Positions 15,069 to 22,641 of a stretch of DNA of 22,641 bases are shown piece after piece. The first letter of the stretch is position 1. Each line of letters starts with the position of its first letter. Made by a program: the position numbers and the translations under genes. Under the pieces are notes generated by a model. That model saw only the letters and a program-made list of their open reading frames with translations. It made no database searches and was not told where the DNA came from. Source of the stretch: a virus. The stretch covers positions 1 to 22,641 of IMG/VR virus record IMGVR_UViG_3300030329_001109. One strand, 5' to 3'.

Positions 15069-17527
<2,459 letters not shown>

Positions 17528-17528
17528 A

Positions 17529-19388
17529 CTATCCTCCTGTTGGTGGAATCAAACCTAAACTTTGTAATCTTGTTTCTGTATTCTGTGCTCCCGGCCTTGG
17601 GGTTCCCGGTGGAACTGAAGGACCAACTGGAGCAGTGGGAGGTACTGGTGGTACACCCATCATTGCGTCAGGCATTACCTGAGGAGGTAATCCCGGCGGT
17701 CCCATTGGAGGTGCCCCCGGTGGTCCCATCGGTGGACTACCCTGTGGTGGCCCTCCCTGTGGCCCCATAGCACCACCACCCATCATTTGTGCCTGTTCCA
17801 TACTCTTTACAGCAAATAATCTTAATAATTCACCCTGATAAAACTGTGCTAAGTCCTGCCTGCCTTGATTAATGGATGCCTGTAGCATTGTCCATAAACC
17901 AGCTTCGGGTAACATACTCTCAGCCATCTGGGTTTTAATTGAATCATCAACTTGGTCTGCTGACTGTAGACCTAGTATCTGGTCACGTATATATGTATCA
18001 GGAAGTAATGGGGTCTGCCCTTCTCTCGCAATCTGAGCCATGCTCATCTTGCTCATCTCGTCCTGAGGCAGCTGGCCCATGAATGTAATCTCTGCTTCGC
18101 CTGCGTTTCGTACAGTTTCAGGGGAAATCTCCTCTGAAAAGTACATTCTGTTCCTGTCCTGACCGCTAACCTCTATGGATTTAAAGGCTCCTGTTATGTA
18201 CTGGTCACACATTAGACGAAATATAATCGAATATGCTCTCTCAAGTGCAGAAAGCCGTGGAACAAGTACAGTTTCTACACCCTGACGCAAGGTATTTATG
18301 GCAAATCCTGAAAGTTGGAACTCAAGTTGTCCATAAATTGAGTGAGGTAAGCCGCCTCTCTGCATTTCCCCTGAAACAAGCCCCATAAAAGCCCCGGATT
18401 CTCTGGACATTTCCAGTAATCCCAGTGGTTCTACGTCTTCGCCCTGTCCAAGTGCGATTTCAGAACCTTCCTTGAATGGGTCTTCTTCCAGTGTCTTAGT
18501 ACCATCTCTGGATTTTACCTTTAATCCCTGCCTACGTGACCTAGCCGTGAGTTCTAACATCACGCTCATCATGAAATTATGCTTCTCGTACAAATCTCTC
18601 GATGATTTAAAGCAAGATTCTCCGTAATCCTCGATGGTATCTAGGTTTCCTGTATCAGTTATAGCCTGTACCAGTGGTTGAGAGCCTACTGGCCCAAGAA
18701 ATACAGGTACACGTTCTGACCCATGCTTGGTTCTTTTCTTAAGAACCTCTGTATCTGTGCATACTATGTTGTCTTCTGAGTCATAAAAGTCATAAACGTC
18801 CACTGCATCGTCATCGTTCGGGTCGCTTCCTTCCCCTGATATGTCTACGTCATACATAGCTTTTATCTCAGAAGGAGTTCTCTTAATCTTGTAACAAGCC
18901 CAAGCTAATCCCTTATCACCTTCTCCCCAGTACGTATGCATTGGGTCCCAAGGCTGTATATCGACATTAGTTTCGCCGTCCTTGTCTTTAACGAACAAGG
19001 CTCTTCCTGCATACCATCCTCTGACAGCTATGTACCAAGCTATCTGGTTTCTGACAGGAGGCTGGAACCTGTTTGCCATTCTCTCATCGGCAGCTTTACT
19101 AATCCCGATAAGGAATCTTTCCTTGGCATCGTTGTTTTCTCTCTGCTCTCTCTCAGAATTACCGTATGGGATTCGCACTACCATCTCTGATGAGGTCATC
19201 CACGATATTAGCTTGTCTGCATAGACCTGTGGTTCGTTGGAGGTGTATGACTGATACCCTTCTCCTGCATCAAATTCTTCCAGTCTGTACAGCTTATGGT
19301 CGTTGTCCATTCTGGTTCGCAGTGGTTCGGTCAAATCATAATGATTATCTACTAAAGCACTTATTTCTTCTGGTTTATAGTTAGCCAT
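17529..19388 (-). CDS. Portal protein
   Basis: 619 residues, immediately after terminase large subunit with a TAATG overlap, which is the standard place for the portal. The N-terminal half carries YKPEEISALVDNHYDLTEPL, an Arg/Glu helix, and EPQVYADKLISWMTSSEMVV, followed by a mixed alpha/beta body (YFSEEISPETVRNAGEAEIT near residue 420) consistent with portal wing and stem. Residues about 535-619 form an extreme Pro/Gly/Met tail with repeated GPP and PPMGPPG, probably disordered and collagen-like in composition. The portal gates DNA entry and anchors the connector. The ribosome site is weak, as expected for a reinitiating gene. The call depends mainly on context and length; the sequence is divergent from model portals. 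Confidence 0.82.
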   Translation of the reverse strand: MANYKPEEISALVDNHYDLTEPLRTRMDNDHKLYRLEEFDAGEGYQSYTSNEPQVYADKLISWMTSSEMVVRIPYGNSEREQRENNDAKERFLIGISKAADERMANRFQPPVRNQIAWYIAVRGWYAGRALFVKDKDGETNVDIQPWDPMHTYWGEGDKGLAWACYKIKRTPSEIKAMYDVDISGEGSDPNDDDAVDVYDFYDSEDNIVCTDTEVLKKRTKHGSERVPVFLGPVGSQPLVQAITDTGNLDTIEDYGESCFKSSRDLYEKHNFMMSVMLELTARSRRQGLKVKSRDGTKTLEEDPFKEGSEIALGQGEDVEPLGLLEMSRESGAFMGLVSGEMQRGGLPHSIYGQLEFQLSGFAINTLRQGVETVLVPRLSALERAYSIIFRLMCDQYITGAFKSIEVSGQDRNRMYFSEEISPETVRNAGEAEITFMGQLPQDEMSKMSMAQIAREGQTPLLPDTYIRDQILGLQSADQVDDSIKTQMAESMLPEAGLWTMLQASINQGRQDLAQFYQGELLRLFAVKSMEQAQMMGGGAMGPQGGPPQGSPPMGPPGAPPMGPPGLPPQVMPDAMMGVPPVPPTAPVGPSVPPGTPRPGAQNTETRLQSLGLIPPTGG

Positions 19389-20764
19389 TACCAGCGTTTC
19401 ACTCTTATTGTGCTGTTTTCCGTAATATATCCGTATCCGTAACGATTAATAAGACCGTAGATAACTGCCTTCACTCCGTGGTTATACCTGTCTTCTGGAG
19501 TCTGTCCCACTATATTACCATCTCTATCCATCTTCCACCTATATGCTCTTGACTGACCATCAAATGGATTTGGCTGAACTCCCAGTTCGGAAAGGATACC
19601 CTTACACTTGGAGTTAAATACAATACGTGGTTCTCGCTGCTCTACCGGGTCTGTCTTAAGAAAGGACTTTAGTCTTTCTGTCCCTTCATTTATCCTGATT
19701 TTCTGTGAATCAAAATATATTCCTGTTCTTTCCAGCCACACTTCAGCTGGAGCAGCCATTGCCTGATGCTGATATCCGGCAACGTCTATGACTCCGAACC
19801 TTGCGTCCCTCCACCAAGGCCGGGACTGGGCTATATCTATTATGTCATCCGTAACTAGGTTCCTTTCGTATATTTCATCTATAACTCGTATCTGGTCATT
19901 GACTACCTGTATGATTTCACAGGCGTAAGCCTCTGCATAACCGGGGTCAATCCAGATATGAACTGGAATATCTGGTTCGTACTCAACATCCTGTACATGG
20001 ATATCTGGTCTTACCTCAGTAAAGACCAATCCCTGTGGGGGTGACGGTACACCTTCGATTCTCTCCATGAAAAAGTCATCAGATGAGGCTCTTTCAAGTG
20101 CAAGAATTTCGGGGTCTTCTCTGCCACCGGGGTAAAGGTAGCTGTTTGAGTAGCTTGGCAGGGAGAAAGCCTTCTCGTCTGCCTGAGATGAGTGCTGCCA
20201 TGCCTGAAACATCTGTGGATACCACCCTAAAGAGCCTTCAAAAGTACCAGCTAGGAACAGCCACCCTCTCTTTGGGGCACATCTTCCTCGTAATCTGTGG
20301 AAAGTTTCCAAGTCCAGCTGCGATGCTTCGCATCCTATGATTCCATTAGGTGCTCTCATAGCCAGAGTACGTGGGTCTTTAGCTGATTTAGTCTCTATTC
20401 TGGTGCCATCTGCCAGCACAATCCTTCCGGGGTCTACTCTTTTAGACGATTCTTTGAGTAATCCCAGCGAACCAAAGTCCTCAACCAGATACTCAAACTC
20501 TGCTCTGGTCCTTTCGTAGTCAGCAGCTACCAGCCAGTACAGTCCGGGGCCGTCATTTTCTAGGAATCTACCCAGTAAATACTTGGAAGCCACCATAGAT
20601 TTTCCTGCCTGCTCACCACCAGCTACAAGAATGAACCTTTTCCGTGAGGAAAGTATGGGCATTTGCAGTGGTGTGGGGGAGAATCCTACTCGGTCATATA
20701 TATAATTCGCTACCTCATTAATCTGGGATGACGAAATCGTAGATTGATTCATGTTCACTAACAT
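19388..20764 (-). CDS. terL: Terminase large subunit (packaging ATPase/nuclease)
   Basis: 458 residues. The P-loop is AGGEQAGKS at 48-56. The Walker B region reads GIIGCEASQ at 141-149, with Cys before the catalytic Glu146 where Asp is usual. The coupling motif is LAGTFEG at 171-177. The C-terminal RNase H-like nuclease shows D273 in HIWIDPGYAEAY, then D327 in VIDVAGYQ, and a last helix DRYNHGVKAVIYGL near 425-438, where His stands near the usual acidic site. It cuts and translocates concatemeric DNA into the prohead through the portal. The start is uncertain: the first ATG at 20764 overlaps the upstream gene by 47 bases, a second ATG lies at 20752, and no further Met occurs until residue 35. 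Confidence 0.93.
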   Translation of the reverse strand: MLVNMNQSTISSSQINEVANYIYDRVGFSPTPLQMPILSSRKRFILVAGGEQAGKSMVASKYLLGRFLENDGPGLYWLVAADYERTRAEFEYLVEDFGSLGLLKESSKRVDPGRIVLADGTRIETKSAKDPRTLAMRAPNGIIGCEASQLDLETFHRLRGRCAPKRGWLFLAGTFEGSLGWYPQMFQAWQHSSQADEKAFSLPSYSNSYLYPGGREDPEILALERASSDDFFMERIEGVPSPPQGLVFTEVRPDIHVQDVEYEPDIPVHIWIDPGYAEAYACEIIQVVNDQIRVIDEIYERNLVTDDIIDIAQSRPWWRDARFGVIDVAGYQHQAMAAPAEVWLERTGIYFDSQKIRINEGTERLKSFLKTDPVEQREPRIVFNSKCKGILSELGVQPNPFDGQSRAYRWKMDRDGNIVGQTPEDRYNHGVKAVIYGLINRYGYGYITENSTIRVKRW

Positions 20765-21057: not shown

Positions 21058-21516
21058 TTAGTTTTTACCTCTAAGGATATCTTCTGCCTGTTGTTCAATT
21101 GATTTATTTGGAGAATCGTCATCTGAGAACTGTATTCCCTTGAACTTGCTCCTCAAATCCTTCATGACATCCTTTGCAACGTCATCGGTAACTACTGGCT
21201 GGTCACGGTACTTGTCAGGCTTTAATGCCTTCAAAACAAATATCTGTAGTATGGGATTACAGTCAGATTTTTTCGCCCTTTCAAATACTACGTTCTCGAT
21301 TATCTCAGCGTAGTCTTCCTTGGCATCATCGAACCTCTGTATGAACCCATACGTATCCTCTCTTCTCCACCTAGATATGGCCTCTCTGCTTATCTTGGTT
21401 TCCATACAGGCATGTTTAATCGTTCCATGCTTATCAAATGCCTCAAGGAACATATTTTGCCTAGCTTTAACGTCCTCTGGCCTAGTACCAGATACCTCTG
21501 AATGACTCGCTGGCAT
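21058..21516 (-). CDS. terS: Terminase small subunit
   Basis: 152 residues. Residues about 20-55 form a helix-turn-helix (FLEAFDKHGTIKHACMETKI, then SREAISRWRRED), the DNA-recognition element of small terminases. A charged central helix (DAKEDYAEIIENVVFERAKK) suits oligomerisation, and the acidic C-terminus (FKGIQFSDDDSPNKSIEQQA) would contact the large subunit. The ATG overlaps the stop of the tiny basic gene as TAATG. An AGGAAG ribosome site is present about eight bases ahead. The protein selects the packaging site, and the repeat-rich DNA about 0.6-1.1 kb upstream is an obvious candidate target. The helix-turn-helix could also belong to a transcription factor, but the place before the terminase large subunit decides the call. 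Confidence 0.8.
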   Translation of the reverse strand: MPASHSEVSGTRPEDVKARQNMFLEAFDKHGTIKHACMETKISREAISRWRREDTYGFIQRFDDAKEDYAEIIENVVFERAKKSDCNPILQIFVLKALKPDKYRDQPVVTDDVAKDVMKDLRSKFKGIQFSDDDSPNKSIEQQAEDILRGKN

Positions 21517-21614
21517 TACTTTTTCTTCCTAGTCATTTTCTTGCCAGTTTTCTTGGCATTCTTTTTAGGCGGTCTTCCTATCTTTTTTCCGTAACTACCT
21601 TTACCGGTTGGCAT
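21516..21614 (-). CDS. Tiny very basic AT-hook-like peptide (32 aa)
   Basis: This frame of 32 codons plus stop runs from an ATG at 21614 to a TAA at 21516. It encodes 12 Lys and 2 Arg, with the core GKKIGRPPKKNAKKTGKKM. GRP flanked by Lys is AT-hook-like, a minor-groove binding pattern. A GGAGG ribosome site at 21620-21624 is placed five bases from the ATG, and the stop overlaps the small-terminase start as TAATG. Small peptides opening MP-x-GKG-x-YG and carrying GRPPKK occur near packaging genes of other phages, from memory. It may coat or bend DNA, or assist packaging initiation. It is easily missed by minimum-length filters. Confidence 0.8.
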   Translation of the reverse strand: MPTGKGSYGKKIGRPPKKNAKKTGKKMTRKKK

Positions 21615-21616
21615 AA

Positions 21617-22045
21617 CTACCTCCAAAAACTTGGTTGGTTATTTTCTATAATAAGATACCACACATGTCTATCAGTACACACGTATCTTAACGGAGCATC
21701 CTTACAACTTTTGAGACTATCAGGAATAACAGCCTCTCCACATTCATCGTATGGACAATCCATCTCGTAAGCAAAAGCATCTGAACCGTTCTTACGGCTG
21801 GAAGACTTTATCTTAACTTTGGCATATATACCACGGAATCTCTTGAATCCACCGTAGTAAGGAACTGCAACTGAACCCAATGAATTATTCTTAGCAACAG
21901 CTAGTCTTGCCCTGTTTCTACTTGTAATCGGGTCTTTGTATTTAACCCACCCACATAACAGGCAATACTTCCTGTCATCTGTTTCTTCAGTTACGCCACC
22001 GCATTTTATGCAGTCTCTACACCTGATACTCATAATGCAATCCAT
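21617..22045 (-). CDS. Zinc-ribbon protein (142 aa)
   Basis: 142 residues. C12-x2-C15 and C28-x2-C31 form a classical zinc ribbon near the N-terminus, preceded by C9. A second metal site is likely from C96 and C101 (CPYDEC) with C122 and H126 (CTDRHVW). The linker is basic (FKRFRGIYAKVKIKSSSRKN). Nucleic-acid binding is likely; it could be a transcription or packaging accessory. The first ATG (22045) has no clear ribosome site. A second ATG at 22033 also has only a weak one, so the start is open. This is the first gene after the noncoding region and follows a structured leader directly. The gene ends two bases before the next start. Confidence 0.72.
   Translation of the reverse strand: MDCIMSIRCRDCIKCGGVTEETDDRKYCLLCGWVKYKDPITSRNRARLAVAKNNSLGSVAVPYYGGFKRFRGIYAKVKIKSSSRKNGSDAFAYEMDCPYDECGEAVIPDSLKSCKDAPLRYVCTDRHVWYLIIENNQPSFWR
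21620..21624 (-). promoter_or_regulatory. Shine-Dalgarno site for the 32-aa gene
   Basis: GGAGG on the minus strand, five bases before the ATG at 21614 and inside the last codons of the zinc-ribbon gene. It is the main sequence support that the tiny frame is translated. Confidence 0.8.
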
Positions 22046-22059
22046 GTTAGCATCAAAGT

Positions 22060-22142
22060 GCAGGGAGCGGTACCGGGGATGGTAACTGCCTCACCATGTC
22101 TTTGCCGTCCAGATGAACCCCGGTCAATCTGGGACTCCCTGC
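22060..22142 (-). ncRNA. Structured leader RNA candidate upstream of zinc-ribbon gene
   Basis: GCAGGGAG (22060-22067) pairs perfectly with CTCCCTGC (22135-22142). Inside it ACCGGGG (22072-22078) pairs with CCCCGGT (22118-22124). A third stem ATGGT/ACCAT (22079-22083 and 22093-22097) lies within. These nested stems make a compact branched fold of about 83 bases that ends 15 bases before the gene start. It is not a tRNA, since there is no valid T-arm or anticodon arm. A cis-regulatory leader or an independent small RNA is possible. The pairing is seen in the sequence; function is inferred. Confidence 0.55.
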
Positions 22143-22143
22143 T

Positions 22144-22199
22144 CCCCCCTTTATTCCCCCCTTCCCCTTAACAATCCCCTACCCCCCTATAATCCCCCC
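22144..22199 (-). other. G-tract run, possible G-quadruplex
   Basis: On the plus strand there are six C-runs of 6, 6, 4, 4, 6 and 6 bases at 22144-22149, 22156-22161, 22164-22167, 22176-22179, 22182-22187 and 22194-22199. On the minus (transcribed) strand these are G-runs separated by 2-8 bases, which fits a G-quadruplex in DNA or RNA. Confidence 0.65.
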
Positions 22200-22201
22200 A
22201 C

Positions 22202-22251
22202 TAGATTTAGATATCAGATATCAGATATCAGATATCTCAAACCTAAATCTA
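22202..22251. repeat. AGATATC x4 tandem inside an inverted repeat
   Basis: AGATATC is repeated four times without a gap at 22209-22236, each holding the palindrome GATATC. The array is bracketed by TAGATTTAG (22202-22210) and its complement CTAAATCTA (22243-22251), so about 50 bases can form a cruciform. This suggests binding sites for a dimeric protein or initiator. Confidence 0.8.
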
Positions 22252-22252
22252 A

Positions 22253-22294
22253 TTACTTGAAATTAGTTATTTGAAATCAGGCTTTTGAATTATT
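22253..22294. repeat. 14-bp direct repeats
   Basis: TTACTTGAAATTAG (22253-22266) is followed at once by TTATTTGAAATCAG (22267-22280), with 12 of 14 bases identical, and by a looser third unit at 22281-22294 sharing TTTTGAA. The 14-bp period differs from the neighbouring 7-bp array. Confidence 0.7.
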
Positions 22295-22398
22295 AGAAGC
22301 GTGTGGCTAAGTGTCAGTAACCCTTTTTATAGAAATTAAATTTAGACACGTATCCACCACTACTGCCCCCAAAGACATAAGACCCACCCCCTCACCTC

Positions 22399-22462
22399 GC
22401 ACCCAAATTAATACCCTCATCACTAGCAGCTGATTACAGCTACTAGGAATCGGGTTGGGTGC
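22399..22462. other. Long nested hairpin
   Basis: An outer stem GCACCCAA/TTGGGTGC (22399-22406 and 22455-22462, perfect 8 bp) stacks with CCC/GGG (22414-22416 and 22452-22454). Around a small internal loop the inner stem is CTAGCAGCTG/CAGCTACTAG (22423-22432 and 22437-22446, nine of ten pairs), closed by the loop ATTA. No T-run follows on either strand, so it is not a terminator of the usual type. Confidence 0.7.
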
Positions 22463-22510
22463 TTCTTGGTTGAATACCGCTCCGCTGCGAAAGCCTCCAG
22501 ATTTCAGGTC

Positions 22511-22566
22511 TCGATATCCGCATATCTGCATATCTGAATATCGGCATATCTAGATATAAAGATATT
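22511..22566. repeat. Seven-unit 8-bp degenerate tandem repeat
   Basis: Seven consecutive 8-base units at 22511-22566 share an ATATC core at the 3' end of each unit (TCGATATC, CGCATATC, TGCATATC, TGAATATC, GGCATATC, then two decayed units). The strict 8-bp phasing with variable first bases is iteron-like and distinct from the 7-bp array at 22209. Confidence 0.75.
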
Positions 22567-22580
22567 GTATTCAGTTTCTT

Positions 22581-22619
22581 GATACTAACGGCTGACAGTA
22601 TCGTATCAGGCGGATACTG
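22581..22619. other. Overlapping GATAC dyads
   Basis: GATACT (22581-22586), AGTATC (22597-22602), GTATC (22603-22607) and GATACTG (22613-22619) allow mutually exclusive hairpins, for example CAGTATC/GATACTG. A T-rich stretch follows at 22625-22638, but it starts five bases after the stem and no plus-strand gene precedes it, so I do not call a terminator. Confidence 0.5.
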
Positions 22620-22641
22620 GCTAATTTCTTTTTTATTTAGG

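Follow-up and report, generated by a model that had tools for sequence, protein, structure and literature searches.

What is the role of the repeat-rich gap at positions 22046-22641 of the window, the 22.6-kb contig (22,641 nucleotides) from an uncultured marine tailed phage that was analyzed here? The structural operon of this phage runs leftward on the minus strand, and the gap lies 5' of the minus-strand genes for a zinc-ribbon protein (ZR), a small basic peptide, and the small and large terminase subunits (TerS and TerL). A preliminary description had regarded the gap as a candidate packaging site or replication origin. We favor, with a probability of about 0.5, the reading that the gap is a control region of the late operon, whose universal core is a structured element, probably an RNA, with an operon-level role, and which includes a probable cos site in one clade.

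In order to compare the gap among related phages, we used TerL as a query, which retrieved 508 relatives from IMG/VR, and kept the best 80 of these 508; the contigs compared are metagenomic fragments. A protein search of cultured phages found no close TerL, with a top identity of 27%. In the orientation of the relatives, the gap is divergent and separates leftward early genes from a rightward late operon of ~28 kb, which starts with ZR, TerS, TerL, and portal. The same gap lies between leftward genes and the rightward late operon in the large contigs G005 (39.9 kb) and G006 (39.0 kb), and the genes recognized on the leftward side of G005 include those for an exonuclease and an anti-restriction protein. 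We found no convincing gene within the gap, the longest closed ORF inside it being 74 aa, and the view that this stretch upstream of the zinc ribbon, the basic peptide, and the terminase is non-coding and functionally important was right. As single-stranded DNA, the 596-nt gap outperforms shuffled sequences in folding by 3.8 sd, and none of 100 shuffles folded as well. BLAST of the gap against the relatives revealed three conserved blocks, of which block C adjoins ZR. Elsewhere in the window, a repetitive fibre-like gene occupies the left end, where the contig breaks (1-1332), and an 819-aa structural gene contains perfect 33-bp (two copies) and 30-bp repeats (15780-15977).

The genes next to the gap are all encoded on the minus strand. 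ZR (21617-22045) is the first gene past the folded element described below. An alignment of 20 homologues showed the motifs C-x2-C...C-x2-C and a C-terminal CP...C-x3-H-x-WY; there was no significant Pfam match, and the predicted fold (pLDDT 74) matched nothing in the PDB. The small basic peptide (MPTGKGSYGKKIGRPPKK..., 21519-21614) is located between ZR and TerS and is widely conserved. In relatives it begins with MPKVGKKHFSYS..., and in some clades it directly follows the folded element and has its own Shine-Dalgarno sequence. TerS (21058-21516) and TerL (19388-20764) were assigned to phrog_4044 (E 3e-14) and phrog_2 (E 6e-17), respectively.

The repeats that gave rise to the earlier proposals are real, yet the conservation of the gap lies elsewhere. 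The 7-bp array consists of four perfect, palindromic copies of AGATATC (22209-22236, unstranded), and an 8-bp ATATCTGC-like array (4.8 copies, 83% matches; 22514-22551, unstranded) lies across block A from it; the word ATATC is common to both arrays, on opposite sides of this block. The repeats reported as a separate 14-bp array exist, but they are the 7-bp array counted in pairs. GATAC/GTATC dyads are present from ~22580 to ~22620, and hairpins are found at 22423-22446, in the palindromic array, and at 22060-22142. For the first of these (CTAGCAGCTG-ATTA-CAGCTACTAG, unstranded), no conservation was found among the relatives. Short tandem arrays are more common than expected by chance, being present in 25 of 37 homologous regions compared to 16 of 111 control pieces. 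Arrays of 7 or 8 bp recur in place in many relatives with a different, often palindromic unit in each lineage: AGATATC in the window and CTGTTAACAG, TGTAACC, ACTAGT, and others elsewhere. Relatives lacking the repeats while keeping the terminase genes had been named in advance as evidence against the arrays, and many relatives indeed keep these genes with differing repeat units and no G-tract block. The tandem palindromes may be fast-evolving operator-type sites.

The most strongly conserved component of the gap is a pseudoknotted element at 22060-22142 on the minus strand; the preliminary description had seen it, but noted it merely as hairpins. In block C, complementary stretches change together. 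A covariance model (R1), built from an eight-sequence seed that was aligned without structure, matches the window with 49.9 bits (E 6e-10), which places the window's own member among the more divergent ones (50 bits). On the minus strand, the element comprises P1 (22135-22142 with 22060-22067), P2 (CCAG/CTGG, 22129-22132 with 22109-22112), P3 (CGG/CCG, 22105-22107 with 22068-22070), P4 (22093-22097 with 22079-22083), and a pseudoknot (CCGGGG/CCCCGG, 22118-22123 with 22073-22078), formed by the P2 loop and the strand that links P4 to P3'. Its length across members is 83-94 nt. Of 75 sources searched with the model (the window and its relatives), 68 have the element, in one copy each and in all members on the terminase strand and upstream of TerS, and large contigs carry one element each wherever the gap is present in full. 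Pieces of the element also served to fetch further contigs; those that the model confirmed carry terminases of the same group, and 744 kb of other, unrelated phage loci contained no match to the model. A chance match to the RNA pattern within a coding gene (L267) fails the covariance model and was discarded.

Compensatory changes support the structure well beyond controls. In an alignment of 45 distinct sequences, which was fitted to the model and thus leans towards structure, compensatory changes that keep the pairing are seen at 20 of 21 nested pairs, and the structure-free seed shows the same changes. Paired cells amounted to 95.2%, compared to 35-52% in controls with partners slid by 1-3 columns, and the covariation score was reached by 0 of 500 shuffles. 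The pseudoknot also covaries, with at least 10 different stem sequences (for example CUAGGGC/GCCCUAG, CUAGAGC/GCUCUAG, CCGGGAU/AUCCCGG, and ACAAAGA/UCUUUGU). The structure rests on comparison and not on energy, because minimum-energy folding of a 160-nt stretch of the window alone was no better than shuffles. Upstream of the element, several sister clades (L006, L008, L010, L027, L060, L064) have an extra hairpin domain with a conserved GGAGGTG, which the window's clade lacks; clades further away have other hairpins in its place, separated by ATTRTANCA-type boxes.

The conserved loop bases (UUAGU, GUCGA, and AGGCAG) together with the pseudoknot suggest that the element is an RNA. G-U pairs make up 1.4% of the standard nested pairs, and so few are also expected of a DNA structure, or of one needed on both strands. 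Judging from these sequence features, we consider an RNA probable over a DNA element at about 3 to 1.

Both sides of the element show promoter-like signals. Just 3' of P1 lies a TG-N-TANCAT box (ATGCTAACAT, 22044-22053, minus strand) resembling an extended -10 box. Of 45 distinct members, 44 have this box no more than 40 nt from P1 (background 0.4%), and all but two of the 45 have it 4-7 nt past P1; TA replaces TG in two. In most cases, the ZR start codon comes 6-7 nt after the box and lacks a Shine-Dalgarno sequence, an arrangement suggestive of a leaderless start behind an extended -10 box. On the 5' side of P1, 24 of 41 members have a similar ATTRTANCA box no more than 60 nt away (background 0.7%). 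Further upstream, the bipartite block A (22321-22391, minus strand), which we aligned in 31 sequences, reads GGGGGT-N2-GTCTT ... (~24 nt) ... ATAC-N4-...ATTTAATTT-N4-AAAAAGG with near-constant spacing. It showed no covariation and was rejected as an RNA; its features fit a DNA site that a polymerase or an activator would recognize, and we describe it as promoter- or activator-like. In a sigma70 scan of the window, promoter-like sites were fewer than in shuffles, and the TANCAT-type box was discarded as a genome-wide promoter, its copies being at or below expectation. A T7-like relative has CACTATAGG at the position after TerL, but a T7-like RNA-polymerase promoter was likewise rejected for the motif ATTATAGGGG, as none of the ten G005 proteins tested was recognized as an RNA polymerase.

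Between the element and the 7-bp array lies the G-tract block (22144-22199, minus strand), a candidate cos site according to motif enrichment and homology to the ends of G005. The G-tracts of the preliminary description correspond to two G6-N6-G6 copies 38 bp apart on this strand, G6-ATTATA-G6 (22182-22199) and G6-AATAAA-G6 (22144-22161), separated by TA-GGGG-ATTGTTAA-GGGG-AA. G005 begins and ends with GGATTGTCAAGGG, a 13-nt overlap inside the G-tract block, and the homologous GGATTGTTAAGGG in the window (22165-22177, minus strand) is a putative cohesive end. Such an overlap is below usual assembler word lengths and would fit filled-in 5' overhangs. A contig of another species (L005) starts at the place homologous to the G005 end. 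For comparison, lambda has 12-nt extensions and PaP3 a 20-nt cos (PMC7672466). Like these sites, the G-tract block lies near the terminase genes; unlike them, it consists of G-tract repeats, all on one strand, and its putative ends are contig ends. The block was found only in the window's clade, and most relatives do not have it.

We additionally searched IMG/VR with the 18-mer GGGGGGATWATAGGGGGG, which returned at least 120 stretches compared to one for a permuted control, an enrichment of at least 120-fold. Among the 120 loci listed, 54 have a gene from one of the tested terminase families within 600 nt, and the terminase genes next to the 18-mer represent at least three PHROG families. In 28 loci (among L102-L221) it lies within ~80 nt of TerS (phrog_2538), and in 17 loci it is mostly within 60 nt of a T7-like TerL (phrog_38). 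A contig end falls within 60 nt of the motif in 8 of the 120 loci (2.3 expected), and one locus (L165, 1-180) shows the layout end-motif-TerS-TerL. In other loci, the 18-mer or G-tract array precedes recombination or replication genes. The TerS of another motif-bearing cluster had one match among cultured phages (31%), a third motif-bearing TerS had none, and BLAST of the G-tract block in phages, run with the low-complexity filter applied, gave no hit. The packaging-site reading draws moderate support, and this from the G-tract block only; the arrays fail as conserved sites. We rate the chances as even that the block has a packaging role, and a cos site in the window's clade is plausible, not proven, on sequence evidence.

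These data might also be taken to mean that the gap as a whole is the packaging site proper, the G-tract array being cut to leave a 5' overhang of ~13 nt, and the terminase binding the folded element, together with its flanks, as a DNA structure. The end overlap of G005 and the homologous start of L005, the enrichment of the motif beside terminase genes of several families, the excess of contig ends near it together with the layout of L165, and the scarcity of G-U pairs in the element all point in this direction. However, most relatives have the folded element and lack the G-tract array, six other contigs cross the array, and in other species the contig ends are spread over ~2.7 kb. In addition, L060 equals L061, and L062 is 99.8% identical, so that their contig ends are not independent, and G-tracts can break assemblies. 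We regard this explanation as possible but rather doubtful.

It appears improbable that these phages, with their ordinary TerS/TerL pair, use the element as a packaging RNA or packaging-linked nucleic-acid structure and that, in addition, G6-AT[TA]ATA-G6 is a packaging signal across unrelated lineages. The pRNA of phi29 has 174 nt, is encoded at 147-320 bp, and has been described as unique to phi29 and related phages (PMC11476376). The element resembles it as a structured element near a genome end and linked to packaging genes; in contrast to phi29, a TerS/TerL pair is present here, the element measures 83-94 nt, and it matches no Rfam family.

We consider it unlikely that the element is a leader controlling the translation of ZR alone, for example through binding of ZR to its own mRNA. 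In most ZR-bearing clades, the start codon lies at a fixed ~22 nt past P1, and a Shine-Dalgarno sequence was not seen before it. However, this spacing is explained by the -10-like box as a leaderless start, and if TG-N-TANCAT is the ZR promoter, the element is upstream of that start and outside the ZR leader. Moreover, loci in which no ZR was found (L008, L010, L011, L025, L064, L012) retain the element. Its role is thus not confined to ZR, and this suggests that it acts at a level above an individual gene.

A replication origin, with the arrays as iterons and the G-tracts promoting R-loop priming of replication, is also hard to credit: tandem repeats flank a conserved block, G-tract arrays of some other phages precede recombination or replication genes, and the suggested check of cumulative GC skew did place a minimum at the gap in G003, G004, and G006, but this minimum coincides with the switch in gene orientation and, because skew follows orientation, is neutral evidence, while the repeat units are lineage-specific, the array is absent from most relatives, no initiator gene was recognized among the ten G005 proteins tested, and nothing supports this reading specifically.

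For the operon-level role to which we commit, the put RNAs of phage HK022 offer an analogy. These are compact structured elements at the head of a phage operon, encoded on the transcribed strand at two early sites. The element described here is likewise compact, structured, and placed at the operon head on the operon strand, and a similar function may be proposed by analogy; unlike the put sites, it is single and late, and put RNAs are not known to contain a pseudoknot of this kind. Transcription would start from block A and the -10-like boxes around the element, which would either form the start of the late transcript or be a separate short RNA. This RNA might condition RNA polymerase in the manner of put, or bind a phage protein, so that transcription continues through the ~28-kb late operon. 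The terminase of the window's clade would in addition cut concatemers at the G-tract array (cos).

In Rfam 15 scans, the element gave no hit even with E values of up to 1-2 allowed, and we found no on-point report of a structured RNA at terminase genes in the open-access literature. Melnitz-like marine phages carry a glutamine riboswitch (PMC9004378), also a structured RNA upstream of genes in marine phages; it differs in fold and gene context from the element, for which Rfam gave no match. To the extent covered by Rfam 15 and the open-access literature, the element matches no known RNA family and is undescribed.

Overall, an element that is unmatched in Rfam and yet conserved in front of the packaging genes through a whole group of uncultured phages points to an undocumented regulatory or packaging step. 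Packaging sites are rarely readable from sequence in uncultured phages, and the 18-bp G-tract motif beside unrelated terminase genes could make them so.
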